Source: a virus. From it: a DNA stretch of 64,000 nucleotides. The DNA is taken from the IMG/VR virus record IMGVR_UViG_3300037245_003267, positions 1 to 64,000 of that record; one strand, 5' to 3'. Every line of letters starts with the position of its first letter. Position 1 is the stretch's first letter. The position numbers and the translations under genes are program-made. Shown here piece after piece: positions 1,263 through 29,744 of this stretch. Below the pieces are notes generated by a model. That model did no database searches, was not told where the DNA came from, and worked only from the letters and a program-made list of their open reading frames with translations.

Positions 1263-1322
1263 GGCTTTCTCCGTTCGGGTTCCGGGCTTCCCCCGGCGGC
1301 GGCGCCCCGGGGCTACCTACAG

Positions 1323-1350: not shown

Positions 1351-1492
1351 GGTATTCCGGGGTTTTTGTTTCTTCCTCTTTTGGGACGGTGGCGGCGGGC
1401 GCGGGGGCGGCGGCCCGGGCTCCACTACCGCGGCCCCGGGGCGGCCCGGGGCGGTGGGGGTCGGCGGCCCCGGGGGTCCGGGGCGGGGGCGC

Positions 1493-1909
1493 CTACCAGC
1501 CGTGGCGGCCCGCGGTCGCGCGGGCGGCGGTTTCGCGGGCGGCCTCGGCGGCGGTGGCGGCGCGGCGGGCGTCGTAGCGGGCGTCGTCGGCGTGGCGGGC
1601 GGCTTCGTCGGCGGCCTGCTCGGCGAGGCGTATGGCTTCGGGGTTCGGGGCGCCCGGGGCGCGGCGGGCGGCGTTCTCGTCGAAGCGGGCGTCGGTAGCG
1701 TAGCGGGCGGCGTCGGCGGCGTGGCGGCCCGCGGCCTTGGCGTGGAAGCCTGCCGAGCCCGAGGCCTTGCGGGCGGCGGTGGCGGTGGCTACGTCGGCGT
1801 CGGCCAGGCGGTAGGCGGCGGTGAGGGCGGCCCCGGCGGCGGAGCGGGCGTTGGCGGCGGCGGTGGCGTAGGTGCGGGCGTTCGCGGCGTAGTTTTCGGC
1901 GGTGGGCAT
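1493..1909 (-). CDS. Alanine-rich array protein 2 (138 aa)
   Basis: Unknown function. By my count 55 of 138 residues are Ala (about 40%); the rest are mainly Arg, Asp, Glu, Thr and Tyr, with no Cys and one Trp at the C terminus. Repeats of the AARYATDARFDENAARR type suggest long amphipathic helices packed through alanine faces. The start is supported by GGAGCGAAAAAG before the ATG, a variant of the array's usual GGAGAAAGCC. It ends with TAG followed by about 230 bases of GC-rich spacer carrying the next gene's element. Confidence 0.7.
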   Translation of the reverse strand: MPTAENYAANARTYATAAANARSAAGAALTAAYRLADADVATATAARKASGSAGFHAKAAGRHAADAARYATDARFDENAARRAPGAPNPEAIRLAEQAADEAARHADDARYDARRAATAAEAARETAARATAGRHGW

Positions 1910-1972
1910 CTTTTTCGCTCCGTTTGGGTTTCCGGCTCCGGCCCGGGCTTCCTTGCCCCGGCCTACCTTCCT

Positions 1973-2000
1973 TTTCGGCAGGGTGGGGCCGTGGCTGGAG
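1973..2000 (-). promoter_or_regulatory. Bipartite upstream element 2 (CTCCAG-N16-CCGAAA)
   Basis: The right box is CCGAAA, one of only two copies on the minus strand departing from CCGAAG. It is followed by AGGAAGGTAGGCC. The ATG at 1909 lies 63 bases downstream, the longest leader of the set. Upstream it reads CCGAATACC, part of a weaker GGAATA-like extension shared by many copies. Confidence 0.75.
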
Positions 2001-2051
2001 GGTATTCGGCTTTTCTTTTCGGCCGCCCCGGGCGGGGGGCGGGGGGGGCGC

Positions 2052-2396
2052 CTACCCCCGGCGGGCCGCCTCGGCGTAGCGGCGGGCGTCGGCCGCGGCG
2101 TGGGCCGCCAGGGTCGCGTTGTTGGCCGCGGCGCAGGTCCTACGCCAGCCTGCGTCGGTGGGGTCGGCGTCGAAGAGGGTATGGGCCGCGGCGGCCGCGG
2201 CGCGGGCCGCGGCGGCCTGGAGGCGGGCGCGGTTGGCCAGGCTACCGGCCTGGCGGGCGGCCGCCCGGCGGAGGTCGGTGGTGGCCGCGGCGCGGGCCGC
2301 CTCGAGGGCCCGGTAGGCCTCGGTCTTGAGGGTGGTGGCCGCGGTGGCGGCGGCGGCGGTTTTTTTGGTCTGGCTGTCGAGGGTGGTGGGGCTCAA
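2052..2396 (-). CDS. Alanine-rich array protein 3 (114 aa, TTG start)
   Basis: Unknown function. Forty-four of 114 residues are Ala, including a run of AAAARAAAAAA near residues 61-71. It begins TTG-AGC-CCC-ACC; the TTG is chosen because GGAGAAAACC sits in exactly the place where the other array genes have GGAGAAAGCC before ATG. The N terminus (SPTTLDSQTKKT) is polar, then the sequence becomes alanine-rich helix with scattered Arg. One Cys and one Trp occur (WRRTC). It is the only array gene with a non-ATG start. Confidence 0.7.
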   Translation of the reverse strand: MSPTTLDSQTKKTAAAATAATTLKTEAYRALEAARAAATTDLRRAAARQAGSLANRARLQAAAARAAAAAAHTLFDADPTDAGWRRTCAAANNATLAAHAAADARRYAEAARRG

Positions 2397-2438
2397 GGTT
2401 TTCTCCGTTGGTGGTTGTTGCTTCCGGCCTACCCCCAG

Positions 2439-2466
2439 CTTCGGCAGACCCGGGGCCGGCCTGGAG
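2439..2466 (-). promoter_or_regulatory. Bipartite upstream element 3 (CTCCAG-N16-CCGAAG)
   Basis: The right box is followed by CTGGGGGTAGGCCGG; 42 bases to the TTG start at 2396. The left box is preceded by CTGGAATACC, forming with it the perfect palindromic pair CTGGA...TCCAG, a feature also seen in elements 1 and 2. Confidence 0.75.
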
Positions 2467-2475
2467 GGTATTCCA

Positions 2476-2508
2476 GAAAAAAGCCCGGGCGGCCCCGGGG
2501 CGGCGGGC
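2476..2508 (-). terminator. Candidate intrinsic terminator upstream of element 3
   Basis: Read on the minus strand, GCCCG and CGGGC arms enclose a GC-rich loop and are followed by six T. It lies between the stop of the gene at 2566 and element 3, so one unit appears to end just before the next begins. Confidence 0.55.
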
Positions 2509-2565
2509 TTCCACTACCGCGGCCCCCGGCGGCGGGGGCGGGGGCGGGGGCGGTAGGGTAGCGGC

Positions 2566-2880
2566 CTACCCTTCGCGGGCGGCGTAGGCGGTAGCGGCGC
2601 GGTCGGCGTAGCGGGCCGACCCCCGGGCCTGGGTAGCGGCGGAGCGGGCGGAGCGGGCGGAAGCCGCGGCGCGGGGCGTGGCGGCCGCGGCGGCGGCGTC
2701 CCGGGCGCGGCCCGCGGCGGTAGCGGCGGCCGCGGCGTGCTGCTCGGCGTAGCGGGCGGCGTCCCGGGCGGCCCCGGGGTAGGTGGCCAGGTCGGCGCGG
2801 CGTTCCCCGAAGGCGGCGTGGTCTGCATGGTAGGCGGCGGCTTCGTAGGCGCGGGCGGCGGCGGCGGTCTGGGTCGGCAT
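2566..2880 (-). CDS. Alanine-rich array protein 4 (104 aa)
   Basis: Unknown function. Forty-seven of 104 residues are Ala, the highest fraction I counted in the array. The pattern is Ala with Arg, Tyr, Asp and Thr (for example ARAYEAAAYHADHAAFGERR), predicted all-helical, with no membrane segment of useful hydrophobicity. The ATG follows GGAGAAAAAT. The 411-base gap upstream is the longest in the array and holds two kinds of repeat as well as this gene's element. Confidence 0.7.
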   Translation of the reverse strand: MPTQTAAAARAYEAAAYHADHAAFGERRADLATYPGAARDAARYAEQHAAAAATAAGRARDAAAAAATPRAAASARSARSAATQARGSARYADRAATAYAAREG

Positions 2881-2932
2881 ATTTTTCTCCGTAGGGGGTA
2901 GGGGGGCGGCGTCGCCCCGGGGCTACCGACAG

Positions 2933-2960
2933 CTTCGGCGGTTCCGGCCCCGGACTTGAG
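2933..2960 (-). promoter_or_regulatory. Bipartite upstream element 4 (CTCAAG-N16-CCGAAG)
   Basis: Consensus left box; the right box is followed by CTGTCGGTAGCCCC. The start at 2880 is 52 bases downstream. The left box is preceded by CCGGAATCC, directly after a copy of the CCTTCGCACC repeat. Confidence 0.75.
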
Positions 2961-3170
2961 GGATTCCGGTGCGAAGGCTTTTCCCGGTCCGCCGGCCCCG
3001 GGGGGGGGCGGGGGGGGTGCGAAGGGATTTCCGGGGGTGCGAAGGATTTTCCCGGATGGCGGAATATCCTTCCCGGTCGCCAGATCCTGGTGAGTGGCGA
3101 AATCCGGGAAAGGCCTTCCCACCCCTGCTGCCCCGCTCCTGCCCCGCTCCTGCCCCAGCGTGAGCGCATG

Positions 3171-3280
3171 CGTTGATCAAACCGTGCGCGCCCGGGCATG
3201 CCCTCGCGCGTTGATCAGACCGCGAATCCGGGCGCGTCCTCGCGCGTTGATCAGACCGCGTGCGCTCGGGCGTTGATGAG
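3171..3280 (+). repeat. GCGTTGATCAGA repeat cluster
   Basis: TTGATCA begins at 3173, 3211 and 3247, each within GCGTTGATCARACCG, and a degenerate TTGATGAG begins at 3273. Spacings are 38, 36 and 26 bp. The core TGATCA is palindromic. The same 12-mer recurs twice in tandem at 7436-7465 and once inside the gene at 5845, so it is a dispersed element rather than a local duplication. An operator or protein-binding site is the simplest reading. Confidence 0.6.
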
Positions 3281-3291
3281 GTTGGGCCTCC

Positions 3292-3561
3292 CTACCCCTG
3301 GTCGTCGGGCTCGGGGTCGGCCCCGGGCTCGCCGGCCTCGCGCAACTCGCGGATGGTGTCGGCGAGCGTGCAAGAGCCAGAGCCGAGGTATTCGTGGTCG
3401 TCGTCGAGGGCCATGACCAGTTGGGCGAGCCAGTATGCTTTTGCGCGGGCGGCGAGGCGGTCGGGCAGGCCGTCGACGGTGTCGCGGGCCTCGCCTACGA
3501 GGGCCTTGATGTCTTCGTGGAGGGTTTCGAGGTGCTCGAGGGCGTCTTCGCGTTCGCTCAT
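3292..3561 (-). CDS. Array protein 5, acidic (89 aa)
   Basis: Unknown function. Unlike its neighbours this protein has an ordinary composition: an acidic helical N-terminal half (SEREDALEHLETLHEDIKAL), a central hydrophobic stretch (AYWLAQLVMAL, about residues 42-52) too short for a membrane segment, and an acidic tail ending EPDDQG. GGAGAAGCC precedes the ATG. It shows that the shared upstream architecture, not alanine content, defines membership of the array. Confidence 0.75.
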   Translation of the reverse strand: MSEREDALEHLETLHEDIKALVGEARDTVDGLPDRLAARAKAYWLAQLVMALDDDHEYLGSGSCTLADTIRELREAGEPGADPEPDDQG

Positions 3562-3605
3562 CTGGCTTCTCCGTTTGGGGTTTTCGGTTCCGGGCCTACG
3601 TTCAG

Positions 3606-3633
3606 CTTCGGCAGGGGTGGGGCCGGCCTTGAG
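3606..3633 (-). promoter_or_regulatory. Bipartite upstream element 5 (CTCAAG-N16-CCGAAG)
   Basis: Full consensus. The right box continues CTGAACGTAGGCCCGG, identical to element 6 over this stretch. The ATG at 3561 is 44 bases downstream. Confidence 0.8.
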
Positions 3634-3642
3634 GGGTTTCCA

Positions 3643-3664
3643 GAAAAACCCCGGGCCGGCGGGG
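3643..3664 (-). terminator. Candidate intrinsic terminator before element 5
   Basis: On the minus strand CCCCG and CGGGG flank a six-base loop and are followed by TTTTT. It lies between the TAG of the gene at 3670 and element 5. Confidence 0.6.
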
Positions 3665-3669
3665 GGCGC

Positions 3670-3981
3670 CTACCCGTAGGAAATCCTGGAGGCGTAGAGG
3701 TCCGCTCGCTCGGCCGCGGCGCGGGCGCGGGCGGCGTGGGCTTCGGCGCGGGCCGCCTGCTTGCTACCCGTGCGCTCGGCCTGCCGCCAGGCGCGTTCGG
3801 CGCGCGAGGCGGCGCGATTGGCGAGGCCGGCCTGGCGGGCGGCGTCGGGGTAGCGGCCTGCGTCGGCCAGGCGGGCGGCCTCGAAGGAGGCGTCGAGGGC
3901 GGCCTGGTTGGCTTCGCCGGCCGCGATGGTCTCGGCGCTGTCGTCGGGTCGGCTGGTGGGGTAGGGCTTGTAGGTCGGCAT
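3670..3981 (-). CDS. Alanine-rich array protein 6 (103 aa)
   Basis: Unknown function. It opens with a non-alanine, proline-containing segment (PTYKPYPTSRPDD), then about 80 residues rich in Ala, Arg and Glu (EAARLADAGRYPDAARQAG). Predicted helical after residue 15. GGAGAAAGCC precedes the ATG and it ends TAG. It has its own element and a candidate terminator just after its stop. Confidence 0.72.
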   Translation of the reverse strand: MPTYKPYPTSRPDDSAETIAAGEANQAALDASFEAARLADAGRYPDAARQAGLANRAASRAERAWRQAERTGSKQAARAEAHAARARAAAERADLYASRISYG

Positions 3982-4033
3982 GGCTTTCTCCGTTTGGGGC
4001 TCCGGCCCGGGGTCGTCCCGGGCCTACGTTCAG

Positions 4034-4061
4034 CTTCGGCTCGATCGGACCGGGCCTTGAG
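4034..4061 (-). promoter_or_regulatory. Bipartite upstream element 6 (CTCAAG-N16-CCGAAG)
   Basis: Full consensus with CTGAACGTAGGCCCGG after the right box; 52 bases to the ATG at 3981. The left box is preceded by CCGGATTCCC. Confidence 0.8.
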
Positions 4062-4087
4062 GGGAATCCGGAAATTCCCCGGGGCGC

Positions 4088-4462
4088 CTACCCCGTGGTG
4101 CGCTCGGCGGCGGGCCGGCCTGCGCGGTAGGCGTGGTCGCGGGCGTCGGCGGAGAAGGCGGAAGCGAGGCGGGCCAGGCCCCGGGCCTTGGTGACCAGGC
4201 GCGCGGGGGCGGAGGGGTCGGGGGCGTCGGGCTCGGCCCGGTCGGCTGCGAAGGAGGCCTCGCGGGCGGCGTCGAGGGCGTGGCCCCATTCGAGGCTGGC
4301 CCAGGCGCGAAACCCCTTCGCGGCGTAGACCTTCGCGGCCTCGGCGGCCTCCTCGGCGCGGCAGCAGGCGCGGCCCGCGGCCCGGGCGTTCGCGTCGTCG
4401 GTCGTCAGGTATTGCCGGTAGGGGCGTTCGGTGGTCGGTTCGAATCCGTCGCTGGCTGGCAT
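4088..4462 (-). CDS. Alanine-rich array protein 7 (124 aa)
   Basis: Unknown function. A polar leader of about 25 residues (PASDGFEPTTERPYRQY) is followed by helices rich in Ala, Glu, Arg and Asp, including a CC pair (AGRACCRAEEAAEAAK). A longer frame begins upstream at 4537, but the start at 4462 is preferred: GGAGAAAGCC precedes it, and the longer form would translate through element 7. Confidence 0.72.
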   Translation of the reverse strand: MPASDGFEPTTERPYRQYLTTDDANARAAGRACCRAEEAAEAAKVYAAKGFRAWASLEWGHALDAAREASFAADRAEPDAPDPSAPARLVTKARGLARLASAFSADARDHAYRAGRPAAERTTG

Positions 4463-4504
4463 GGCTTTCTCCGTTTGCTGTTTCCGGTCCGTTGCTACCC
4501 TTCT

Positions 4505-4532
4505 CTTCGGCTCGGGGGCCGGCGGTCTTGAG
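4505..4532 (-). promoter_or_regulatory. Bipartite upstream element 7 (CTCAAG-N16-CCGAAG)
   Basis: Consensus boxes; the sequence after the right box (AGAAGGGTAGCAAC) departs from the usual CTG...GTAGGCC. The start at 4462 is 42 bases away. Confidence 0.75.
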
Positions 4533-4533
4533 T

Positions 4534-4561
4534 TCATTTCCGGTTTTCCGCCCGGAAATGA
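4534..4561 (-). repeat. Ten-base inverted repeat abutting element 7
   Basis: TCATTTCCGG and CCGGAAATGA are perfect 10-base arms around an eight-base loop. It sits between the stop of the gene at 4590 and the left box of element 7. It may act as a terminator or as part of the control site; no T tract follows. Confidence 0.6.
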
Positions 4562-4589
4562 GGGGGGCGGCGGGCGCCCCCCGGGCGGC

Positions 4590-5078
4590 CTACCCCGCGG
4601 CCTTCGCGGCGGCGTCGGCCTGGGCCAGCGCTCGGTCGGTGTCGGCCTGCTTGGCCCAGGTGTCGTGGGTGCGTTCGCGGGCGCCGAGGGCGTCCTGGGC
4701 CTCGGCGTGGGCGGCGTCGCGGGCGTCGGTCGAGCGGTGGGTCGCGCGGAGGGCGCGGCGCAGGAAAGGGGTCATCTCGTCCTGGGCCTCGCGCAGGGGT
4801 AGGCGGTGGAGCAGGCGGTTGCATTCCTTGTGGGCGGCCATCGCGGTCTCGTGGGCGGCCTTGGCCTGGTTCGATTCCGATACCGCGCCGGCGGCGGCCC
4901 GGGCTATCGTCCCGGCGGCCTCGACCCCGTTGTCGCGGGCGAAGCCGCAGGCGTTTCCGCGGTGGTGCTTCGCGCCCCGGGCGCGGGCCTCGGCGTCGTC
5001 GGCCGCGGCTTCCGCTACGAGGGCGGCGTCGAGAATCTGGAGGGCTTCGCGGTTCGGGGTGCTTTCGAAGGTCGTCAT
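4590..5078 (-). CDS. Alanine-rich array protein 8 (162 aa)
   Basis: Unknown function. The alanine fraction is lower than at the far left, with normal hydrophobic residues (REALQILDAALVAEAAADD at the start) and long charged helices. It contains two His-Cys-containing patches (KHHRGNACGF near 45 and HKECNRLLHRLP near 90) that could bind metal but match no known motif. ATG follows GGAGAAAGCC and it ends TAG. It could be helical coiled-coil along most of its length. Confidence 0.72.
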   Translation of the reverse strand: MTTFESTPNREALQILDAALVAEAAADDAEARARGAKHHRGNACGFARDNGVEAAGTIARAAAGAVSESNQAKAAHETAMAAHKECNRLLHRLPLREAQDEMTPFLRRALRATHRSTDARDAAHAEAQDALGARERTHDTWAKQADTDRALAQADAAAKAAG

Positions 5079-5120
5079 GGCTTTCTCCGTTGGTGGTTGG
5101 TTCTTCGGGCCTGCCCCTAT

Positions 5121-5148
5121 CTTCGGCAGAAGGGGGCGGGGCCTTGAG
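5121..5148 (-). promoter_or_regulatory. Bipartite upstream element 8 (CTCAAG-N16-CCGAAG)
   Basis: Consensus boxes, with ATAGGGGCAGGCCCG after the right box; 42 bases to the ATG at 5078. Confidence 0.78.
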
Positions 5149-5169
5149 GGCTTTCGGTTTTTCTTCTCC

Positions 5170-5385
5170 CTACCCCGCGGCCCGGGCGAGGTCGTAGCGG
5201 AAGCGGTCTCCGAGGCGGCGGTCTTCGGTCCCGTTGAGGAAGGCGTCGGTCTGCTCGGTGGTCAGGCGGGGGCAGCGCTGCTGCGCCATCCTTGGCGACC
5301 AGGCCTCGCCCCCGCGGCGGGCGGCGGCCCACCCGAGGAGGAAGGCGCGGGCGGCGTCGGTCTTGCGTTCGTGGGTCGTGGGCAT
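5170..5385 (-). CDS. Small array protein 9 (71 aa)
   Basis: Unknown function. Basic N-terminal helix (PTTHERKTDAARAFLLGWA) followed by an Arg, Gln, Thr-rich segment and the C terminus RFRYDLARAAG. Composition is ordinary compared with the Ala-rich members. The ATG is preceded by GGAGAACAGCG, the same variant ribosome site used at 6633 and by the divergent plus-strand gene at 9648. Confidence 0.72.
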   Translation of the reverse strand: MPTTHERKTDAARAFLLGWAAARRGGEAWSPRMAQQRCPRLTTEQTDAFLNGTEDRRLGDRFRYDLARAAG

Positions 5386-5424
5386 CGCTGTTCTCCGTTG
5401 GTGGTTGTTCCGGCCTACCCCTAC

Positions 5425-5452
5425 CTTCGGCAGGGGGGCGGTAGGTCTTTAG
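5425..5452 (-). promoter_or_regulatory. Bipartite upstream element 9 (CTAAAG-N16-CCGAAG)
   Basis: The left box is CTAAAG, and its TAA is also the stop codon of the upstream gene (5449). The right box is followed by GTAGGGGTAGGCCGG; 39 bases to the ATG at 5385. Confidence 0.72.
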
Positions 5453-5703
5453 GCCTTTCTGGAAAAGCGAATCGCTACGAGCAGGCTGTTCCCCCCGTAG
5501 GAGAGCGTGTCGTGGCGGCGCCCGGTCCGGACCCGAAGGTCGCCCGCGGAGTCGAGGCTGAACCAGTCTGCGTGCTTCGCGCGGTAGTCGGTCAGGCGGT
5601 AGGCGGTCCCGACCCGGACGATTCCGCCGGCCCGGAGGTGGGCCTGAATCTTGGCCAGGAGGTCGTGGAGGTCGTGCTTGTGGGCTTCGAGGTCGGTGGG
5701 CAT
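5449..5703 (-). CDS. Small array protein 10 (84 aa)
   Basis: Unknown function. An N-terminal helix with a His-rich start (PTDLEAHKHDLHDLLAKIQAH) precedes a likely beta-rich C-terminal half with alternating hydrophobic residues (GIVRVGTAYRLTDY, then LVAIRFSRKA). It is one of the few array proteins expected to have a mixed fold. The ATG follows GGAGAAAGCC. Its stop codon overlaps the left box of the next gene's element, showing how tightly the units are packed. Confidence 0.74.
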   Translation of the reverse strand: MPTDLEAHKHDLHDLLAKIQAHLRAGGIVRVGTAYRLTDYRAKHADWFSLDSAGDLRVRTGRRHDTLSYGGNSLLVAIRFSRKA

Positions 5704-5752
5704 GGCTTTCTCCGTTCGGGTTCGCCCGGGGCGTTTCCCCTGGCACCACCAC

Positions 5753-5780
5753 CTTCGGCGGTCTGGCGTCAGAACTGAAG
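5753..5780 (-). promoter_or_regulatory. Bipartite upstream element 10 (CTTCAG-N16-CCGAAG)
   Basis: The left box is CTTCAG; the right box is followed by GTGGTGGTGCCAGG, a GTGCCA ending shared with elements 12 and 15 in place of GTAGGCC. The ATG at 5703 is 49 bases downstream. Confidence 0.72.
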
Positions 5781-5811
5781 AGTATTCCAGGGTTTATCTC
5801 TGCGGGCCTCC

Positions 5812-5845
5812 GGCCGGCCCCGGGCGGGGGCCGGCGGGGCCGGCC
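5812..5845 (-). terminator. Strong GC hairpin after the gene at 5845
   Basis: GGCCGGCCCC and GGGGCCGGCC form perfect 10-base arms around a 14-base loop, beginning at the stop codon. No T tract follows, so it may block transcription or protect a 3' end rather than act as a classic intrinsic terminator. Confidence 0.55.
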
Positions 5846-6633
5846 TACTCCTGGGCCTTCTCGGCCTCGGCCATCTGGCAGTCGGGGCAGAGGCCCGTCT
5901 CGGTGTTCGCGGCCCCGGTCAGGGTCCGGTCTTCGCAGGCGGGGCAGGCGTGGGTCTCGAAATCCTCGCCGGCGGCCTCGCGGAGGGCGGTCAGGAGGAG
6001 GGCGGCCGATGCGGCGCGGCGGCCGAAGGCGGGGCGGTCGGTGGCGATGGGGTGCGAGACGGCCAGGTAGCTGAAGGCGGCCCGGGCCTGCCCGAGCGTG
6101 TTGATCAGGTCGTCGGCGAGGGCCTCGATCGGGGGGGCGGGCGCGCGTTGATCAGAGCGGGCGGCGGCCTCGGCGTCCGCGGCCTTCTCGGCTTCGAGCC
6201 GGGCCTCGTAGGCGCCGCGGCGGGCGAGGCGGGCGCAGACCGTGGCACCCTCGGCGGCCTGGCGGGCCGAGCCGGCGGCGTCGGGGTCGGCGTGGGCTAT
6301 CGAGCCGGCGTCGTCCGCGGCCTCGTAGGCGCGCTGCCAGGCGTCCCTCGCGCGGTCCGCGGCGCGGCGGCAGGCGGTCGCGGCGTAGCGGGCGGCGCTG
6401 ACCGGGCCGTTGTAGGCGGCGTGGTTCGCGGCCACCCCGTAGGTGCGTGCTTCGGAGAGGGCGGTCTGGGCGTCCTTCCACCCCTTGGTCGCGCGGTCGA
6501 GGGCGGCCCCGATGGCGATTTCGGCGTCGGAATCGGGGTCGTGGTCGGCGGCGTAATCCATGAGGGCCTCGGCGGCCTCGGGGTCGTGTTCGGGGTCGGG
6601 CAGGCTGTCGTAGGTTTCGGGTTCGAAGGTCAT
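5845..6633 (-). CDS. Array protein 11 with C-terminal zinc ribbon (262 aa)
   Basis: Unknown function. An acidic N terminus (EPETYDSLPDPEHDPEAAEA) leads into about 170 residues of Ala, Arg, Asp and Glu-rich helix, then a more ordinary hydrophobic helix (residues about 165-215) and a C-terminal four-cysteine ribbon, CPACED followed about 15 residues later by CPDCQM. The ribbon suggests nucleic-acid or protein binding. GGAGAACAGCG precedes the ATG. A copy of GCGTTGATCAGA falls inside the gene near 6148. Confidence 0.75.
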   Translation of the reverse strand: MTFEPETYDSLPDPEHDPEAAEALMDYAADHDPDSDAEIAIGAALDRATKGWKDAQTALSEARTYGVAANHAAYNGPVSAARYAATACRRAADRARDAWQRAYEAADDAGSIAHADPDAAGSARQAAEGATVCARLARRGAYEARLEAEKAADAEAAARSDQRAPAPPIEALADDLINTLGQARAAFSYLAVSHPIATDRPAFGRRAASAALLLTALREAAGEDFETHACPACEDRTLTGAANTETGLCPDCQMAEAEKAQE

Positions 6634-6676
6634 CGCTGTTCTCCGTTTGGGGTTGTTGCTTCGGGCCTACCGTCAG

Positions 6677-6704
6677 CTTCGGCAGGAAGGCCCCCGGGCT
6701 TGAG
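6677..6704 (-). promoter_or_regulatory. Bipartite upstream element 11 (CTCAAG-N16-CCGAAG)
   Basis: Full consensus with CTGACGGTAGGCCC after the right box; 43 bases to the ATG at 6633. Confidence 0.8.
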
Positions 6705-6719
6705 GGCCTTCCGGAATTT

Positions 6720-7031
6720 CTACTCGCGGGCCGCGGCCTCGGCCTCCAGGCGGCTGGCCAAACCGCGGAGGCGGTAGGCGCTGTCGAGCCGGTTCCGAAC
6801 CGCGTCAATCCGGTCGGCGGCGGCGTGGGCGTCTTTCTGGGCGAGGGCGAGGTCGGACCAGAGGCCGGCTCGGCGCTGCGCGTCTTCGGGGTCGGCGATG
6901 GCCTTCTCGATGGCGTCGGCCAGCATCGGCCATTTCGTTCCTGGGTGTCCCTGGGATACCAGGGCGAGGGCGGCCTCGAAGTCGGCGGAGGCGGCGGCCT
7001 GAAAGGTCAGGGAGTCGGTCTGGTCGGTCAT
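6720..7031 (-). CDS. Array protein 12 (103 aa)
   Basis: Unknown function. Helical, with moderate Ala and normal hydrophobics (SADFEAALALVSQGHPGTKW, then MLADAIEKAIADPEDAQRRAGLW) and a charged C-terminal helix ending LEAEAAARE. The start at 7031 is chosen over one 57 bases upstream because GGAGAAAAGCC precedes it and the longer form would run into the leader. It ends TAG. Confidence 0.74.
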   Translation of the reverse strand: MTDQTDSLTFQAAASADFEAALALVSQGHPGTKWPMLADAIEKAIADPEDAQRRAGLWSDLALAQKDAHAAADRIDAVRNRLDSAYRLRGLASRLEAEAAARE

Positions 7032-7079
7032 GGCTTTTCTCCGTTTCGGGGTTTCGGGTGCTTTCCTTGGCACCCCTAC

Positions 7080-7107
7080 CTTCGGCACGATAGCTCTGCG
7101 GCTTGAG
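7080..7107 (-). promoter_or_regulatory. Bipartite upstream element 12 (CTCAAG-N16-CCGAAG)
   Basis: Consensus boxes. The sequence after the right box, GTAGGGGTGCCAAGG, is identical to that of element 15. The ATG at 7031 is 48 bases downstream. Confidence 0.78.
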
Positions 7108-7135
7108 GGAAAGCCAGAGAATTTCCCTCTTCGCT

Positions 7136-7411
7136 TCAGGCGGCCCGCGTCACCTTCGGGCGGGGGCCGGCCGGCGGGGCCTGGCGCAGGCGTATCTCCT
7201 CGTGGAGGGCGTCGACGGCCCGCTCGATGGCCGGCTCGGCCTCGCCCAGGCGGTGGGCGGCGGCCCAGGCGCGGAGGTCTTCGAGGGCCTCCACGACGGC
7301 CTCGGCCTGGCAGGCGGCGTCGTTGCCCGGGCGGGCCTGGGTGGCGAGCAGGTAGCTGGCGGCGGAATCGAGGCGGAGGCGGGCGCGGTCGTAGTAGGGC
7401 AGGCGTGGCAT
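7136..7411 (-). CDS. Array protein 13 (91 aa), second gene of a pair
   Basis: Unknown function; helical, with moderate Ala and a Pro and Lys-rich C terminus (APPAGPRPKVTRAA). It is the exception in the array: no bipartite element lies upstream, and its start (AAGGAGACCGACCG before ATG) is only 50 bases from the stop of the gene at 7462. The two are therefore probably one transcript made from element 13. The short gap between them is filled by two tandem GCGCGTTGATCAGAG copies. Confidence 0.72.
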   Translation of the reverse strand: MPRLPYYDRARLRLDSAASYLLATQARPGNDAACQAEAVVEALEDLRAWAAAHRLGEAEPAIERAVDALHEEIRLRQAPPAGPRPKVTRAA

Positions 7412-7431
7412 CGGTCGGTCTCCTTGGTGGG

Positions 7432-7471
7432 TGCGCGTTGATCAGAGCGGGCGCGCGTTGATCAGAGCCGG
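7432..7471 (+). repeat. Tandem 20-bp repeat with TTGATCAG core
   Basis: Two 20-base units, GCGCGTTGATCAGAGCGGGC and GCGCGTTGATCAGAGCCGGC, differ at one position. TTGATCA begins at 7438 and 7458. The second copy contains the stop codon of the gene at 7462. They match the cluster near 3.2 kb. Confidence 0.7.
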
Positions 7472-7998
7472 CGGCCCTTGCGGCCCCGGACCGTGACGGT
7501 CAGGGAGTCGTCGTGGCAGTTCGGCGGGGCCTTATCGTAGTGGCGGGCTTCGGTCCGCACCCGGTCGGCCTCGGCCTGGGCTTCGTCGGCCTCCTCCTTC
7601 GCGTCGTCGGCGTCCTGCTGGGCGTCGCCCCAGGCCTGGCAGCGTTTGATGTACGGGCCAAGGGAATCCCCCCGCTTCGCCTTCTCGGCGAACAGGTAGG
7701 CGGCCTCGGCCTTCTCCTGGAGGTCGTCGGCCTCCATCTCCATGTCCGTCGCGTGCTCTTCGGCCTCCGCGGCCCGGACTTCCAGAAGCTCCCAATCGAG
7801 GAGGTCTTTGCATTCGGAGCAGAGGCGGCCCCGGGCGCGGGCGATGGCTCGGCTCCGCTTGTTGTAGACGGTCACCGTGGCGTTGAAGCCGGTCGGCGTG
7901 CCGTTCTCGAGTTCGGTCCCGTGCAGGCGGCAGAGAGGGCAGGCGATTTTCGGCTTGCGTCTCTTCGGGCGTTCGATGCTGGGCGTCTCGCTGGTCAT
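7462..7998 (-). CDS. Array protein 14, zinc-finger plus coiled coil (178 aa)
   Basis: Unknown function. A basic N terminus (ERPKRRKPK) leads into CPLC near residue 20 and CSEC near residue 62, a likely four-cysteine zinc site with a beta-rich loop between (GFNATVTVYNKRSR). From about residue 72 to 155 the protein is a strongly charged heptad-like coiled coil (ADDLQEKAEAAYLFAEKAK). The C terminus is basic (TVRGRKGRRL). This layout suits a DNA- or RNA-binding dimer. GGAGAAAGCC precedes the ATG; it likely shares a transcript with the gene at 7136. Confidence 0.78.
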   Translation of the reverse strand: MTSETPSIERPKRRKPKIACPLCRLHGTELENGTPTGFNATVTVYNKRSRAIARARGRLCSECKDLLDWELLEVRAAEAEEHATDMEMEADDLQEKAEAAYLFAEKAKRGDSLGPYIKRCQAWGDAQQDADDAKEEADEAQAEADRVRTEARHYDKAPPNCHDDSLTVTVRGRKGRRL

Positions 7999-8037
7999 GG
8001 CTTTCTCCGTGGGTGGTCCGTTCCGGTCTACAGGTAG

Positions 8038-8065
8038 TTTCGGCAGGGGGTCGGGGGGCCTTGAG
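8038..8065 (-). promoter_or_regulatory. Bipartite upstream element 13 (CTCAAG-N16-CCGAAA)
   Basis: The right box is CCGAAA, then CTACCTGTAGACCGG. It lies 39 bases before the ATG at 7998 and directly abuts the stop codon of the 51-residue gene at 8067. Confidence 0.75.
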
Positions 8066-8066
8066 T

Positions 8067-8222
8067 TTATTCGGGCAATTTCCTCCTGGGCTTCTGGGCG
8101 CGGACCCGGGCCATCGCTTTCCGGTAGCAGTCCACCGCATCCTGGAGGGCGCGGTAGGCGTCGAGGGCCTCGGCGTCGGCGGCCCGTCTCAAGGGGTGCG
8201 GTGGGGCGGTGGTGGTGGGCAT
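8067..8222 (-). CDS. Array protein 15, very small and basic (51 aa)
   Basis: Unknown function. Translation reads MPTTTAPPHPLRRAADAEAL, then a helix with one Cys and a basic tail ending QKPRRKLPE, stop TAA. It is accepted despite its size because it has the full architecture: element 14 upstream, GGAGAAAGCC before the ATG, and the same MPT opening as several neighbours. The basic, compact form would suit a small nucleic-acid or protein-binding inhibitor, but nothing specific is recognised. Confidence 0.7.
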   Translation of the reverse strand: MPTTTAPPHPLRRAADAEALDAYRALQDAVDCYRKAMARVRAQKPRRKLPE

Positions 8223-8260
8223 GGCTTTCTCCGTGTCGGGGTCGTCCGGTCTACCTTCAC

Positions 8261-8288
8261 CTTCGGCCGGCGCGGGGCCGGCCTTGAG
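8261..8288 (-). promoter_or_regulatory. Bipartite upstream element 14 (CTCAAG-N16-CCGAAG)
   Basis: Consensus boxes with GTGAAGGTAGACCGG after the right box; 38 bases to the ATG at 8222. The upstream CCGGAATAGC contains the TAG stop of the gene at 8290. Confidence 0.78.
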
Positions 8289-8289
8289 G

Positions 8290-8718
8290 CTATTCCGGGA
8301 GTTCTTTCTGCACCCGTTGTGCGAAGAGGCGGGCGGCGTCGTGGGCGACCTGCTCGGCCAGGTAGGCCTCGCGCGTGGCCTCGTCGCGGTGGGTTACCGC
8401 CTTCTCCGCGAGGGCGATGGCGTCCCGGTTCTCGTTGGTGATGGGCGGCCTGCCGTCCGAGTTTCCGCAGGCCGGTCCGATGCCCGCGAGGGCCTTGGCC
8501 TGGTCGGCCGTTCGGTGGGCCAGAATCCGGTAGGCCTCGGCCTCGGCGGCGTAGCGCACGACCATCCTGGTGTGCGAGGCGAGCGTGGCGAGGGTACCGT
8601 CGCGGCGGCATTTCTCGTAGCCTTCCTCCGCTATCGTGCGGACGTTGAGGGCGTCTTCGGCCGCGGCCTGGGCGAGGGTGGCGAGGTGGTTGAGGAGGGC
8701 TTCGGTGCTGGGCTTCAT
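8290..8718 (-). CDS. Array protein 16 (142 aa)
   Basis: Unknown function. Thirty-two of 142 residues are Ala (about 23%), well below the left-end members. It is helical, with two separated Cys (KCRR near 37 and PACGN near 93), a polar loop at about 92-107 (GNSDGRPPITNENRD) and a charged C-terminal helix ending FAQRVQKELPE. ATG follows GGAGAAAGCC. Its stop codon lies within the GGAATAG upstream extension of element 14. Confidence 0.75.
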   Translation of the reverse strand: MKPSTEALLNHLATLAQAAAEDALNVRTIAEEGYEKCRRDGTLATLASHTRMVVRYAAEAEAYRILAHRTADQAKALAGIGPACGNSDGRPPITNENRDAIALAEKAVTHRDEATREAYLAEQVAHDAARLFAQRVQKELPE

Positions 8719-8753
8719 GGCTTTCTCCGTTGGGGTTTCCTTGGCACCCCTAC

Positions 8754-8781
8754 CTTCGGCAGGGGCGCCCGGGGCCTTGAG
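8754..8781 (-). promoter_or_regulatory. Bipartite upstream element 15 (CTCAAG-N16-CCGAAG)
   Basis: Consensus boxes; GTAGGGGTGCCAAGG after the right box repeats element 12 exactly. Shortest leader of the set, 35 bases to the ATG at 8718. The upstream GGAATAG carries the stop of the gene at 8783. Confidence 0.78.
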
Positions 8782-8782
8782 T

Positions 8783-9409
8783 CTATTCCGTCAATTCCTG
8801 CACCCGCCGGTAGCAGGCCATCTCCCAGGAGTAGGCGAGGTCGGTTTTCTGCCTCGCTCCCAGGAAGGCGGCGTGGGCCTCGGCCTTGGTCGTGAAGTCG
8901 GCGGCGTCGCAGGTCGCGGCCGCGGCCTCCGCTACGGTCGGCGCCGCGGCGTCGCAGGCGTTCGCGGCCCCAAGGACGGCGTCGAGGGCGGCCTGGTCGG
9001 CGGGCGGTAGCGCGGGCGGGGGGTCGTCGTAGCCTGCGCGGTCGAGGTCGTCGTGGGCGGCCTCCTCGGCCTGCTGCAACTCGCCCACCAGGTCGGAGAT
9101 TACCGCGCGGAAGGCGGAGGGCGAGAAGTCTCCGGAGAGGGCGCGGACACCGAAGTCCCAGGCCCGGGCGGCGATGGGAAAGAGCCCGGGAATCGGGTGC
9201 TTGCCGACCCGGTAGGAGGGGGTCGCCCGCATCTGGTCGACCAGGCAGGCGCGGGCGGCGTCCAGCAGCCGGAAGAGGCCTCGGTTCACCGTGAGGTCCC
9301 CATCCTGCGGCTCTCCGTCGTGGACGTTCGCGGCCTCGGAGAGCCCTTCGAGCATCTTCGTGCAGTCGGCGAGGGCGTCTCTTGCGTAGGTTTTCGTGTC
9401 GTCATCCAT
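8783..9409 (-). CDS. Array protein 17, first gene of the leftward array (208 aa)
   Basis: Unknown function. Composition is nearly ordinary: helical N terminus (DDDTKTYARDALADCTKMLE), a central hydrophobic and aromatic region (GLFPIAARAWDFGVRALS at about 97-114), and an Ala-rich C-terminal third. The start at 9409 is preferred over the frame opening at 9487 because GGAGACGAGCC precedes it, and the longer form would translate across element 16. It is the entry point of the array, facing the divergent plus-strand unit. Confidence 0.78.
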   Translation of the reverse strand: MDDDTKTYARDALADCTKMLEGLSEAANVHDGEPQDGDLTVNRGLFRLLDAARACLVDQMRATPSYRVGKHPIPGLFPIAARAWDFGVRALSGDFSPSAFRAVISDLVGELQQAEEAAHDDLDRAGYDDPPPALPPADQAALDAVLGAANACDAAAPTVAEAAAATCDAADFTTKAEAHAAFLGARQKTDLAYSWEMACYRRVQELTE

Positions 9410-9468
9410 GGCTCGTCTCCGTTCGGGGTTTTCGGCGTCGCCCGGGTCGCCCCCGGGCCTACTACCAC

Positions 9469-9496
9469 CTTCGGCTCGCTCCGTCATAACATGAAG
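9469..9496 (-). promoter_or_regulatory. Bipartite upstream element 16 (CTTCAT-N16-CCGAAG)
   Basis: The left box is CTTCAT, preceded by CTGAATTGA; the right box is followed by GTGGTAGTAGGCCCG. Its spacer is AT-richer than in other copies (contains GTTATGA). The ATG at 9409 is 59 bases away. It faces element 17 across about 65 bases. Confidence 0.72.
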
Positions 9497-9559
9497 TCAA
9501 TTCAGAGATTGCAGCGAAAGTAGTCGTCGCTCTTCGGGACTTGGAATTCGGAGAATTGT

Positions 9560-9587
9560 CTTCAGGTCGTGGGCCGGTCGTCCGAAA
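9560..9587 (+). promoter_or_regulatory. Bipartite upstream element 17, plus strand (CTTCAG-N16-CCGAAA)
   Basis: The only copy pointing rightward. CTTCAG, 16 bp, CCGAAA, then GTAGGGGTGCG; the upstream GAGAATTGT mirrors element 16 (GAATTGA). It lies 60 bases before the ATG at 9648. Its presence on the other strand, still with a 16-bp spacer, shows that the motif travels with transcription direction rather than with the strand. Confidence 0.72.
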
Positions 9588-9647
9588 GTAGGGGTGCGAA
9601 CGAGAGCCGGCTCGGGGCCGGCGAGACCCCTGCTACGGAGAACAGCG

Positions 9648-9839
9648 ATGACCGACGAGAAGAAGCACGCCAGGAGCCTGGCCGACTTCGACCCCGCCGA
9701 CTACGACGAGGGCGAGGCGCCTACCGACGACGACCTGGCTTGGTATTGCCCGAGCTGCAAAAGCCAGGGTGTCCTACCGGACCCGGGCAACTGCGGAGTC
9801 TGCGGAAAACCGCTGGCCTGCTACGACATCCGCGAGTGA
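9648..9839 (+). CDS. Small zinc-ribbon protein (63 aa)
   Basis: Acidic N-terminal half (EGEAPTDDD) followed by a rubredoxin-like or zinc-ribbon knuckle pair: CPSC near residue 38 and CGVC near residue 50. The start follows GGAGAACAGCG, the same ribosome-site variant as two leftward array genes. It is the first gene rightward of the divergent elements and probably shares a transcript with the gene at 9885. The function is unknown; the ribbon suggests binding to nucleic acid or an RNA polymerase-type partner. Confidence 0.78.
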   Translation: MTDEKKHARSLADFDPADYDEGEAPTDDDLAWYCPSCKSQGVLPDPGNCGVCGKPLACYDIRE

Positions 9840-9884
9840 CAAGACCGGCGCCCCCCGGGGCGCCTGACCCCAACGGAGAAAGCC

Positions 9885-10247
9885 ATGACCACCAGGACGA
9901 TCCTGGATTCCGCCACGGAATCCGCCACCACCCTCGCCAGCCTCCTCGGCCGGCGCGACCAGGTCGAGCACACCAGAGCGATCGCGCTCGAGAAGCTCGC
10001 CACCCTCGAATCTCACTGCGAGACGCTCACGCTTGATCAGGCGGGCGACGACAGCGACCTGATCTGGCAGGCGGCCTGGCAACTCGGGCGGTCCGCGAAG
10101 CACGCGCAGGCGGTCTTCAGCCGGGCCGGCGCCATCGGCCTCTACGGGCCGGGGCAGGAGCGAGAGGTGCAGAGGGCGCTGCGCGACCTGCGGGCGCGGG
10201 GCGAGAGCCTGCTGCGGATCCAACGGCACCTGATGGCGGCGCTGTAG
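9885..10247 (+). CDS. Helical protein of unknown function (120 aa)
   Basis: No recognisable domain. Predicted all-helical with a Thr and Ser-rich start (TTRTILDSATESATTLASLL) and a basic C terminus. The ATG is preceded by GGAGAAAGCC, identical to the leftward array. It lies 45 bases after the preceding stop, with no element of its own, so it is probably co-transcribed from element 17. A CTTGATCAG copy lies inside the gene near 10032. Confidence 0.75.
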   Translation: MTTRTILDSATESATTLASLLGRRDQVEHTRAIALEKLATLESHCETLTLDQAGDDSDLIWQAAWQLGRSAKHAQAVFSRAGAIGLYGPGQEREVQRALRDLRARGESLLRIQRHLMAAL

Positions 10248-16077: not shown

Positions 16078-17469
16078 CTATTCCGGCGGCTTTTTGTGCC
16101 GCCTTTTCTTGACCGAAGCGAAGGTCGCGCCCTTCGCATTGGAGAGCCTCGCCGGCGTCCCGGTGAACGCCTGGAAGCGCTCCACAATCACGTCGCAGTA
16201 GAGGGCGTCGAGCTCCATCACGTAGGCGTTCCGGCCCGTCTCCTCGGCCCCGATCAGTGTCGAGCCGGAGCCGCCGAACAGGTCCAGGACGTTGTCGCCG
16301 CCAAGCGTCGAATTGGTGATCGCGCGCCGCGCGAGCTCCACCGGCTTCTCGGTCAGGTGGACCCGGTCGGACGTGGAGACCTTCTTGATCGTCCACACGT
16401 CGTTCACGCTGTTGCCCCCATACCAGCGGTGCTTCGCGCCCTTCTTCCAACCGTAGAAGCACCACTCGTGGTCGCCCATGTAGTCCTTGCGCGTCATCAC
16501 CGGGTGCTGTTTGTGCCAGATGATGCACTGAGCGAAGTGAAGGTCGACGATCTTCAGGGCCGGAGGGTAGACGGCGATGTTGGCATACCCACCCCAGATG
16601 TAGAACGGGCCGCCCTCCACCAGGTGGCGCACGGCGTTCCGGAACCACTGCTCGAGGATCACCTGGAATTCGTCGTCCGGCAGGCAGTCGTTCTCGATCG
16701 CGCGGTCGCGCGGCCGCAGCTTGCGCTTGGTCCCCTTCTTCGCGTCGGCCGTCGTCGGGTAGCTCGAGGCCCCGGCCGCCATCGCCATGTTGGAGCGGGG
16801 GGAGACGGCCACGTTGTAGGGCGGATCCATGTTGATGAGGTGCACCGGGGCGCCGTTCAGCAGCTTGCCCAGCGCCTCCTCGGAACCGCTGTCGCCGCAG
16901 AGCAGCCGGTGCCGGCCGAGCACCCACACGTCGCCCATGCGAGTGACCGCGTTGTCGGGCATCTCGGGGATGTCGTCCTCGCCGACCTCGCCGCTCGATC
17001 CGAACATCGTCTCGAGCTCTCGGTCGGTAAAGCCCACCGTCTCGAGATCCCAATCGTCACCCTCGAGCTCCTTCAAGATCTCCTGCAGCTGGACCTTGTC
17101 CCAATCTGAGAGCTCGGCCGTTCGGTTGTCCGCGATCGCGTAGGCTTCGGCGTTCCGGTCCGTCTCCTTCACGAACACGGCCGCGATCTCCTTCCACCCG
17201 AGTTGCGTGGCCGCGATGAGGCGGGCGTTACCGGCCACCACCCGCTTCGAGCCGTCGTCGCGCTGCTGGACGACGATCGGGACGCGCTGCCCGAACTGCT
17301 GCAGGGACGTCTTGATCGACTCGATACTGCGCGTGGGGTGCGCGCGAGCGTTGCGGGGGTCGAGGTGGAGCGACCGTATGTCCACGGCAAGGGGCCGGAG
17401 CCCCTCTATGATTTGTTCGGCTTCTTGAGCATGCGCGCCACCACCGTTCTCAGTGCGGTCTCCGCCCAT
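16078..17469 (-). CDS. ParB-like plus beta-class DNA N6-adenine methyltransferase (463 aa)
   Basis: The N-terminal ParB/Srx-like domain (about residues 29-125; VVAGNARLIAATQLG) is followed by a methyltransferase with DPPY at 215-218 and FGGSGS at about 398-403. Having DPPY before the S-adenosylmethionine motif makes it beta class, like CcrM. TEKPVELARRAI is the usual lead-in to the FGGSGS motif. Such ParB-methyltransferase fusions are common in phages and often act without a restriction partner, protecting phage DNA or altering expression. The start overlaps the upstream gene by 64 bases; a GTG near residue 29 is an alternative. Confidence 0.88.
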   Translation of the reverse strand: MGGDRTENGGGAHAQEAEQIIEGLRPLAVDIRSLHLDPRNARAHPTRSIESIKTSLQQFGQRVPIVVQQRDDGSKRVVAGNARLIAATQLGWKEIAAVFVKETDRNAEAYAIADNRTAELSDWDKVQLQEILKELEGDDWDLETVGFTDRELETMFGSSGEVGEDDIPEMPDNAVTRMGDVWVLGRHRLLCGDSGSEEALGKLLNGAPVHLINMDPPYNVAVSPRSNMAMAAGASSYPTTADAKKGTKRKLRPRDRAIENDCLPDDEFQVILEQWFRNAVRHLVEGGPFYIWGGYANIAVYPPALKIVDLHFAQCIIWHKQHPVMTRKDYMGDHEWCFYGWKKGAKHRWYGGNSVNDVWTIKKVSTSDRVHLTEKPVELARRAITNSTLGGDNVLDLFGGSGSTLIGAEETGRNAYVMELDALYCDVIVERFQAFTGTPARLSNAKGATFASVKKRRHKKPPE

Positions 17470-24176: not shown

Positions 24177-24555
24177 CATGGATCTGGTCCGGCCGGGGAA
24201 GCGCAAGTCGTGCGACCCGGGCCGGGCCGATCGCATCCAGCAGATCAAGGACCGGATCAGGTCGGACCCGCGTTGGAAGCGTGACCCGATCACCCAGGTC
24301 CCCACCAACGCACCGAAGCGCCGGCGGGACCTCGGCCTCCCACCCATCAAGCGCATCCATCTCACAGAAGACGAGCGCGTCGAGATTGGCCGGTGGGCCG
24401 AGGCATACAAGCTGTGCCGCAAGAAGGACCGGCTTCAATTCGCTCAGTGTCTTGGAGCACTCTACCGCGGCGCGTCGACGGTTTCGGTTCGGAAGCTACT
24501 CCGCGTGGCGAACATGCGGAGCAACGGGAGCGATGACAATGGGCGAGAGCAGTAA
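24127..24555 (+). CDS. Basic protein of unknown function (142 aa)
   Basis: No domain recognised. Strongly basic (PGKRKSCDPGRADRIQQIKD, then TNAPKRRRDLGLPPIKR), followed by a helical C-terminal half with ERVEIGRWAEAYKLCRKKDR and VRKLLRVANM. Nucleic-acid binding is likely from charge alone. GGAGGTAATTG precedes the ATG. It overlaps both neighbours, so translation is probably coupled. Confidence 0.7.
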   Translation: MARIRIWGHHPIERVADMDLVRPGKRKSCDPGRADRIQQIKDRIRSDPRWKRDPITQVPTNAPKRRRDLGLPPIKRIHLTEDERVEIGRWAEAYKLCRKKDRLQFAQCLGALYRGASTVSVRKLLRVANMRSNGSDDNGREQ

Positions 24556-25297
24556 CATTGCCTGGTGCGATCACACTTTTAACCCATGGGTTGGATGCCG
24601 CGAGATCAGCGCCGGCTGCAAGCACTGCTACGCAAGGGGCCTGGCGGCGCGCTACGGATGGGACGTTTGGGGATTACCCAAGCGCAGAAGGGTCACGGCC
24701 GACTCGACATGGAAGGGCCCCCGCAAGTGGGATCGCGCGGCGAAGCTGGCCAGGCATTCGCCACGGGTCTTCTGCGGGTCCCTCTGCGACGTCTTCGAAG
24801 ACAACGCGGAGCTCGAGGGGCCGCGGGCCCGGCTGTGGAACCTGATCTGGGAGACGCCGCACCTGGACTGGCTCCTGCTCACCAAGCGGGCCGACCGGAT
24901 CCAGGCGTGCCTACCTCCGGACTGGCTCGAGATGGGCTGCGAAGGCTACCCGAACGTGTGGCTCGGGGTGTCGATCGAGGATGCGTCGGTCGCGGACCGG
25001 GCCGTTCAGCTGGCGGCCGTGCCGGCGACGGTGCGGTTCGTCTCCTACGAGCCCGCCCTGGGCCCCCTGGCCGACGAGGTGAACCTGCTGGGCATCGATT
25101 GGGTGATCTACGGGGGCGAGAGCGGCCCGCACCACAGGCCCAACGACCGCCAATGGGCGCGCGACATGCTGGACGTTTGCCGGCGTAGGCAGGTCGCCTT
25201 CTTCTACAAGCAATCGGGCGGTGTGCGGCCTGGTGAGGGCGTGGAGCTCGACGGCGAGTTGATCCAGGAATTCCCGCGGGTTTCTCTGCTGGATTAA
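24539..25297 (+). CDS. DUF5131 phage protein, Gp37/Gp68 family (252 aa)
   Basis: Clear DUF5131 signature: IAWCDHTFNPWVGCREISAG followed by CKHCYA (C10, C20, C27, C30), VFCGSLCDVFED, LLLTKRADR, NVWLGVSIED, RFVSYEPALGPL and YGGESGP. The cysteine pattern resembles a radical-SAM-like iron-sulphur site, but the family's reaction is not known to me. Common in phages and prophages. The start at 24539 leaves eight bases to GGGAG; an ATG two codons upstream is too close to it. Confidence 0.9.
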   Translation: MGESSNIAWCDHTFNPWVGCREISAGCKHCYARGLAARYGWDVWGLPKRRRVTADSTWKGPRKWDRAAKLARHSPRVFCGSLCDVFEDNAELEGPRARLWNLIWETPHLDWLLLTKRADRIQACLPPDWLEMGCEGYPNVWLGVSIEDASVADRAVQLAAVPATVRFVSYEPALGPLADEVNLLGIDWVIYGGESGPHHRPNDRQWARDMLDVCRRRQVAFFYKQSGGVRPGEGVELDGELIQEFPRVSLLD

Positions 25298-28584: not shown

Positions 28585-29072
28585 TCGACCCGATGCGCAA
28601 GCTGGCGGAACTCTGGTACAGGTTTACGCAGCAGGACCCACCTGGCGACCCACCGATCTCTCAGACGGTCGAGATCCTCGACGTGGCGATGCGGCCGGAG
28701 TCGCACGAGGTCTACAACCCCGCGCAGCTTGACGTGGAGGGCGCGCTCGAGCGGCTGTTCGAGATGCACGACGAGGTGGCGAAGTTCCTGGCAACGTACC
28801 AGGAGCGCGACCGAAACGGGTTCATGGCCGACGAGGAGGAGACTCTCGAGAAGGCGCTGGAGCACTGCCCTTCGAAGCCGAACCGCAAGCGCGTGGTGTC
28901 GAACCTCCGGTCGATCCCGCAGGCCCCGCGGCGGATGGCGATGTTCTCGACGCTCACGTCGATCGCCACCGAATATCCGATCTGCCTGACCGACGTGATG
29001 GCGATCGCCAAGCGGCTCGGGGTGGAGGTCTGCCCCTGGATGCCGACGAGCAAAGACGAGGTGGTCGGATGA
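28578..29072 (+). CDS. Protein of unknown function (164 aa)
   Basis: An acidic helical protein: LERLFEMHDEVAKFLATYQE and EEETLEKALEHCPSKPNRK. The second half contains FSTLTSIATEYPICLTDVMA, a possible helix-turn-helix-like segment without clear family match. ATG overlaps the upstream stop. Soluble. Confidence 0.7.
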   Translation: MLIDPMRKLAELWYRFTQQDPPGDPPISQTVEILDVAMRPESHEVYNPAQLDVEGALERLFEMHDEVAKFLATYQERDRNGFMADEEETLEKALEHCPSKPNRKRVVSNLRSIPQAPRRMAMFSTLTSIATEYPICLTDVMAIAKRLGVEVCPWMPTSKDEVVG

Positions 29073-29275
29073 CACCAGACGAGAAAGCAGCGCTCCGCGA
29101 GTTGGTCGCCGAGGCGAGGACCTGGGCCGGCGAAATGGAGCGCAGCGCCTACGAGCTACGTGGCCTGGGCGACGAGTGCGAGGATGTCGCCGCCGGCAAC
29201 AGGAAGGTGGCCAAGACGCTGAGAGGCCTGGCCGATGTGGTCGAGGCGCAGGTGATCGAGGACGGGGCCACATAA
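29069..29275 (+). CDS. Small helical protein paralogous to the alpha-CTD-like protein tail (68 aa)
   Basis: Residues 11-68 align with the C-terminal half of the next gene's product: VAEARTWAGEMERSAYELRG against IADARDMADELTRSADEMKN, and AAGNRKVAKTLRGLADVVEA against VAQNRKTSMMLVRLAALVEA, both ending VI-D-G. The two therefore share an ancestral helical module; this one lacks the N-terminal domain. Function unknown, possibly hetero-oligomerisation with its neighbour. ATG overlaps the previous stop. Confidence 0.75.
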   Translation: MTPDEKAALRELVAEARTWAGEMERSAYELRGLGDECEDVAAGNRKVAKTLRGLADVVEAQVIEDGAT

Positions 29276-29291
29276 AGACGGAGGGTTGCCC

Positions 29292-29744
29292 ATGGGAGAC
29301 GAACTCGAATTTGTGACGCTCGATACTTTGATCGGGCACCTTGAGCTCTCCGAACGCGCCACACGCTCCCTTTACCACGAGGGCGTCAAGAGCGTGGGAG
29401 ATCTGTTGCGTTTCCCCACGCTAAAGATCGGGGACATCCGCAACGTCGGCGAGAAGACGAAGAAAGAGATCTTCACGTTGGTTCGGAGGCTCGCGAGGCG
29501 GATCTCGGAACGGCACATGGAGATCTTCGAAGCAAGCCGCAGGCTTATCGCAGACGCCCGCGACATGGCGGACGAGTTGACACGCTCTGCGGATGAGATG
29601 AAGAACTTCGGGTCAGTTTCCGGTCCGGTTGTCGCGCAAAACAGAAAGACATCCATGATGCTCGTGCGCCTGGCCGCGTTGGTCGAGGCGCATGTGATAG
29701 ATGGGCCGGCGTCGAGCGCCGCGGTCCGGCTCGAACCGAAGTAG
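29292..29744 (+). CDS. RNA polymerase alpha-CTD-like protein with helical tail (150 aa)
   Basis: Residues 9-66 resemble the C-terminal domain of bacterial RNA polymerase alpha: LIGHLELSERATRSLYHEGV, GDLLRF, then IRNVGEKTKKEI. R22 corresponds to E. coli R265 and K55 to K298, both DNA contacts in UP-element recognition; N268 is replaced by R25. Residues about 85-145 are the helical module shared with the gene at 29069. A phage protein with this domain could bind promoter upstream DNA, sigma or activators and so redirect host RNA polymerase; this role is inferred. A TTG two codons upstream is a less likely start. Confidence 0.75.
   Translation: MGDELEFVTLDTLIGHLELSERATRSLYHEGVKSVGDLLRFPTLKIGDIRNVGEKTKKEIFTLVRRLARRISERHMEIFEASRRLIADARDMADELTRSADEMKNFGSVSGPVVAQNRKTSMMLVRLAALVEAHVIDGPASSAAVRLEPK

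Follow-up and report, generated by a model that had tools for sequence, protein, structure and literature searches.

Phages usually alter the promoter choice of the host polymerase by binding to its parts or modifying them; in T4, the residue modified is alpha Arg265 itself (PMC2988021). Phage-encoded proteins that resemble the C-terminal domain of the RNA polymerase alpha subunit (alpha-CTD) are already known, and the protein described here, P0001, is a divergent case. Phage records with an alpha-CTD include an Akonivirus 'DNA binding protein', an 'RNA polymerase subunit alpha' of Bacillus phage Goe8, and a protein of Ruegeria phage V16_23, and UniProt holds alpha-CTD entries from Rhodococcus phage Finch, Mycobacterium phage Mithril, and uncultured phages. 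We also observed alpha-CTD proteins in ten IMG/VR loci; two of the ten join sigma-70 region 4 to the alpha-CTD in one small protein (viral contigs L015, 3581-4201, and L022, 3527-4195). Some matches in the phage collection were bacterial rpoA genes in mislabelled records. A possible alpha-CTD-like protein (L008, 2509-3237; tblastn E 0.02) lies in MT835483.1, which is labelled as a phage; this record is more likely a conjugative element because a gene for a TraG/VirD4-like coupling protein adjoins.

P0001 is a 150-residue fusion of an alpha-CTD-like domain and a predicted helical hairpin, with homologues for both halves. The Akonivirus proteins (Microbacterium phages Atraxi gp24 and Mazun gp26) are of similar size, and their alpha-CTD, too, is divergent (Atraxi gp24 scores 42.7 bits); however, it is C-terminal, keeps N268 and has lost K298, and no hairpin paralogue was seen. 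In Bacillus phage vB_BmeM-Goe8 (c00050) and Ruegeria phage V16_23, the alpha-CTD is joined to another domain, as in P0001, but the partner domains differ and the DNA-contact residues are nearer to those of RpoA. The L015 and L022 proteins likewise have an alpha-CTD outside RpoA in viral contigs, but they carry a sigma domain, which P0001 does not. A hairpin of the P0001 type was absent from all matched phage alpha-CTD proteins.

The P0001 gene and its genomic setting

The gene lies in a 64,000-nucleotide stretch (the window) of the IMG/VR virus record IMGVR_UViG_3300037245_003267, which has 69,730 bases in all. The open reading frame, as first noted, spans 29292..29744 on the plus strand, with an ATG at 29292 and a stop codon at 29742-29744, and a ribosome-binding site, GGAGGG (29280..29285, plus strand), precedes the ATG by 6 nt. 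It stands within a series of short, mostly overlapping plus-strand genes. The record carries terminase, tape-measure, and tail genes, together with RecT-like and helicase-loader genes, and the terminases closest to its own come from Shewanella, Rhizobium, and Erythrobacter phages; the source is a tailed phage. With terminase and tail genes on the same record, P0001 counts among the free phage alpha-CTDs, those encoded outside RpoA. Elsewhere in the window, 16078-17385 on the minus strand encodes a DNA methyltransferase with a fused ParB-like domain, and the first 44 positions (1-44), almost pure G, are a likely sequencing or assembly artefact.

The P0001 gene, with 59.4% GC where the median is 65.4%, is AT-richer than the genome, and its codon score is the third lowest among 102 genes; both are in keeping with recent acquisition, although no strong difference separates the two halves. 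A search for sigma-70-like promoters in the region of the gene found 0 where 1.5 were expected.

The alpha-CTD-like domain, its contact residues and its origin

Residues 9-62 of P0001 (29316..29477, plus strand) matched the Pfam family RNA_pol_A_CTD (PF03118) with 40.9 bits and an E-value of 1.7e-10, above the curated cut-off of 23.8 bits, and this was the sole PF03118 match of the 69,730-base record. A profile search of PDB sequences returned RpoA matches down to 2.9e-25. The AlphaFold model (pLDDT 86.5, from an input alignment of ten rows) was then compared with solved structures by Foldseek. The top PDB matches were solved RpoA alpha-CTDs, superposed with an rmsd of 0.9-1.5 Å over ~51 residues, and the Caulobacter alpha-CTD in complex with AT-rich DNA (9zum) was among them. 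Because half of the query consists of the long hairpin, the Foldseek E-values were modest (0.03 and above); the probabilities, however, were near 1, and the matches were consistent. Together, the Pfam, PDB profile, and fold searches all name the alpha-CTD and rule out a chance resemblance. The original prediction had named the same family for the N-terminal part, proposed the superposition that now fits, and considered that a profile might instead place it in an unrelated helix-hairpin-helix family; no other such family matched P0001 in Pfam at E<=1, which rules out that assignment.

We then aligned the domain to E. coli numbering. The alignment bore out the earlier statement that R265 and K298 are kept and N268 is changed to Arg. 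P0001 retains R265 (R22 in P0001), N294 (N51), G296 (G53), K298 (K55), and E302 (E59), and it carries the changes N268R (R25), C269S, S299T, K297E, and D259H. Five residues of the contact set R265/N268/C269/N294/G296/K298/S299/E302 are therefore kept; S299T is conservative, and the remaining two are C269S and N268R. Each of the 11 RpoA proteins compared has Asn at position 268, as do the RpoA matches of a further search and most other phage copies of the domain. In E. coli, changing N268 to A, W, T, or D impairs UP-element use or activated promoters, and the reported changes do not include Arg (PMC11434276); N268R could therefore weaken or redirect binding by P0001. The net charge of the alpha-CTD part is 0. 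DNA binding by P0001 is plausible.

One possibility is that the domain has degenerated into a scaffold for protein interactions only and does not bind DNA. N268, C269, S299, and K297 are all changed and the charge is neutral, and the gene, AT-richer than the genome and with a codon score among the lowest of the 102, has the composition of one recently acquired or weakly constrained. However, drift would not favour the retention of R265, N294, G296, K298, and E302, and we regard this explanation as improbable.

A transcription take-over, in which the free domain acts as a competitor of host alpha-CTD at UP elements, sigma, or activators, or brings polymerase to phage promoters, would agree with the alpha-CTD fold and with several DNA- and sigma-surface residues in P0001, such as E261 and R265. 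The viral contigs with sigma-70 region 4/alpha-CTD fusions also favour it, as does the absence from the record of any match to sigma-70 region 2, sigma-70 region 4, or the RpoA N-terminal domain (PF01000); the search of the record for a single-subunit polymerase ran without a positive control. Against it, N268R and D259H fall on residues that bind DNA or face sigma (PMC11434276 for N268), and descent of P0001 from RpoA lacks support in HMM scores and trees. Competition for UP elements, as first proposed, is doubtful given the impairment caused by the E. coli N268 changes (PMC11434276).

The original prediction had also suggested that P0001 guides polymerase to unusual promoters in an array. 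The array it meant is probably the set of repeated upstream regions at 1-9.9 kb (window 1300-9900), where an element common to about 17 genes reads TCAAG, ~16 nt, CCGAA, 5-9 nt, GTAG (GGTAG), then AACGGAGAAAGCC before the start codon, in approximate register, and is preceded by A/T-rich blocks at intervals of roughly one helical turn. This looks like a repeated promoter or leader with a spacing loosely of the sigma-28 type. When 0-1 mismatches were allowed, all matches to the element fell within 1.3-8.3 kb, none of them near the P0001 gene, and the suggestion thus found no support. Weighing both sides, a take-over of this kind is unlikely, with some chance of being right.

The origin of the domain was less clear than its fold. 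P0001 shares with RpoA (PF03118) the fold, the helix-hairpin-helix core, and R265/N294/G296/K298/E302, but it differs by N268R, C269S, and S299T, and it has no alpha N-terminal domain or fused polymerase part, carrying a C-terminal helical hairpin instead. Among NCBIfam models, the best match was PglW, a BREX kinase that has an alpha-CTD-like domain (1.1e-8, versus 6.9e-8 for rpoA); at 33.3 bits against a cut-off of 990, the PglW model (NF033442) matches the domain only and not a full-length kinase protein. PADLOC likewise matched PglW to residues 6-81 (1.2e-10). In HMM comparisons, P0001 scored 48.3 bits with PglW domains (n=4), 45.6 with other phage copies, and 36.5 with RpoA, a ranking that is only suggestive because the sequence sets differ in diversity. 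The full set of alpha-CTDs, once aligned, proved too diverse for a pattern search; smaller alignments were usable. A 248-residue genome match (G078) was without the RNxG core and was discarded.

These results raise the possibility that the domain is a PglW-type helix-hairpin-helix module rather than an RNA polymerase one, with generic DNA or protein binding and, speculatively, a role as a BREX type 2 kinase decoy. The profile scores agree with this, as do the Pro at 285, the Thr at 299, and the loss of Asn at 268 that P0001 has in common with PglW. One tree joined P0001 to PglW, apart from RpoA and from the other phage copies, with 97/84 support on long branches. However, support was 75/83 and 41/70 after the long branches were changed, and placement with the Akonivirus proteins was not rejected (p-AU 0.41 and 0.46). 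PglW has ~1,400 residues with a kinase, whereas P0001 is a 150-residue phage protein, and its RNVGEK loop (RNxGxK) is more RpoA-like than the loop in all but one of the four PglW proteins. We consider a PglW-type module unlikely. Since the trees do not fix its placement, the domain is best called alpha-CTD-like: the fold and family first assigned to it stand, but it is not clearly derived from RpoA, as PglW models score at least as high on it.

The helical hairpin and its upstream neighbour

In the AlphaFold model, the last helix of the alpha-CTD-like domain runs on into the hairpin as one continuous predicted helix (residues 54-106; 29451..29609, plus strand), and the hairpin extends to residue 136. 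In a BLASTP search of all 102 proteins predicted in the window, residues 81-141 (29532..29714, plus strand) matched a 68-residue protein with 44% identity over 61 residues (E 2e-10), the only convincing paralogue of P0001 within the window. This protein (29069..29275, plus strand), a candidate partner, has no alpha-CTD and is predicted as a helical hairpin with helices at 3-30 and 35-63 (pLDDT 92.6). Its gene ends 16 nt upstream of the P0001 gene and is probably co-transcribed with it. With a hairpin paralogue directly upstream, the P0001 gene reads as a fusion that has its alpha-CTD-less partner beside it; the simplest history is that the hairpin gene was duplicated and an alpha-CTD-like segment joined to one copy. 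The predicted helix 1 of the hairpin is strongly amphipathic; helix 2, by the same measure, is not.

No reliable match for the hairpin as a known domain came from Pfam, PHROG, or PADLOC, and a fold search returned many small unnamed phage hairpins. The designed maquettes found by phmmer in the PDB matched through coiled-coil composition only and were rejected as relatives. A search for the same fusion in other phages, proposed earlier, found no relative with the whole P0001 architecture in IMG/VR, the phage and plasmid collections, or bacterial genomes, and none with the hairpin pair. The one distant relative of the phage itself (64.5 kb, possibly a fragment; tail protein 39% identical) has no PF03118 match. 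The window also encodes a DUF5131 (phage Gp37/Gp68-type) protein at 24539-25297 (plus strand; 1.5e-69 to phrog_2045), which is common among IMG/VR phages; none of 28 phage contigs with this gene, which may be fragments, has PF03118.

A putative DNA-binding adaptor

We propose, with moderate confidence and from sequence and predicted structure, that P0001 is a two-domain, probably oligomeric adaptor of the phage that binds the DNA minor groove and likely modulates transcription. In the model, the last helix of the alpha-CTD-like helix-hairpin-helix domain continues into an antiparallel helical hairpin, and the hairpin may oligomerise with itself and/or with the 68-residue partner. Such an oligomer would bring at least two alpha-CTD-like domains next to each other, and the paired domains could bind the minor groove via the R265-type arginine and the NxGxK loop, with a DNA preference altered by the Arg at position 268. 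The 68-residue neighbour might set the stoichiometry or serve as a built-in competitor. The likely outcome would be modulated transcription from promoters of the phage or the host, whether or not P0001 touches RNA polymerase directly; both this contact and control by the partner are speculative.

The adaptor reading is supported by the Pfam, PDB profile, and fold searches, the kept contact residues, the adjoining paralogue, and the amphipathic helix 1, and a transcriptional context is supported by the two IMG/VR proteins that join sigma-70 region 4 to an alpha-CTD. It is weakened by N268R, the net charge of 0 of the alpha-CTD part, the lack of amphipathicity in helix 2, and the lack of a relative with the full architecture. 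A bolder form, which we think has a small chance of being correct, is that an alpha-CTD mimic with a dedicated 68-residue partner tuning the number of domains at DNA or polymerase would form a two-gene switch of promoter choice.

The literature searched contained no experimental paper on phage-encoded alpha-CTDs, and phage alpha-CTD-like proteins, several of them so annotated, have apparently had no experimental study there. P0001 is a compact case: Arg, an unusual residue there, occupies a key position for DNA contact, and the neighbouring gene encodes a copy of the hairpin that has no alpha-CTD-like domain. Two small proteins, P0001 and its 68-residue neighbour, would suffice to probe both activity and regulation.
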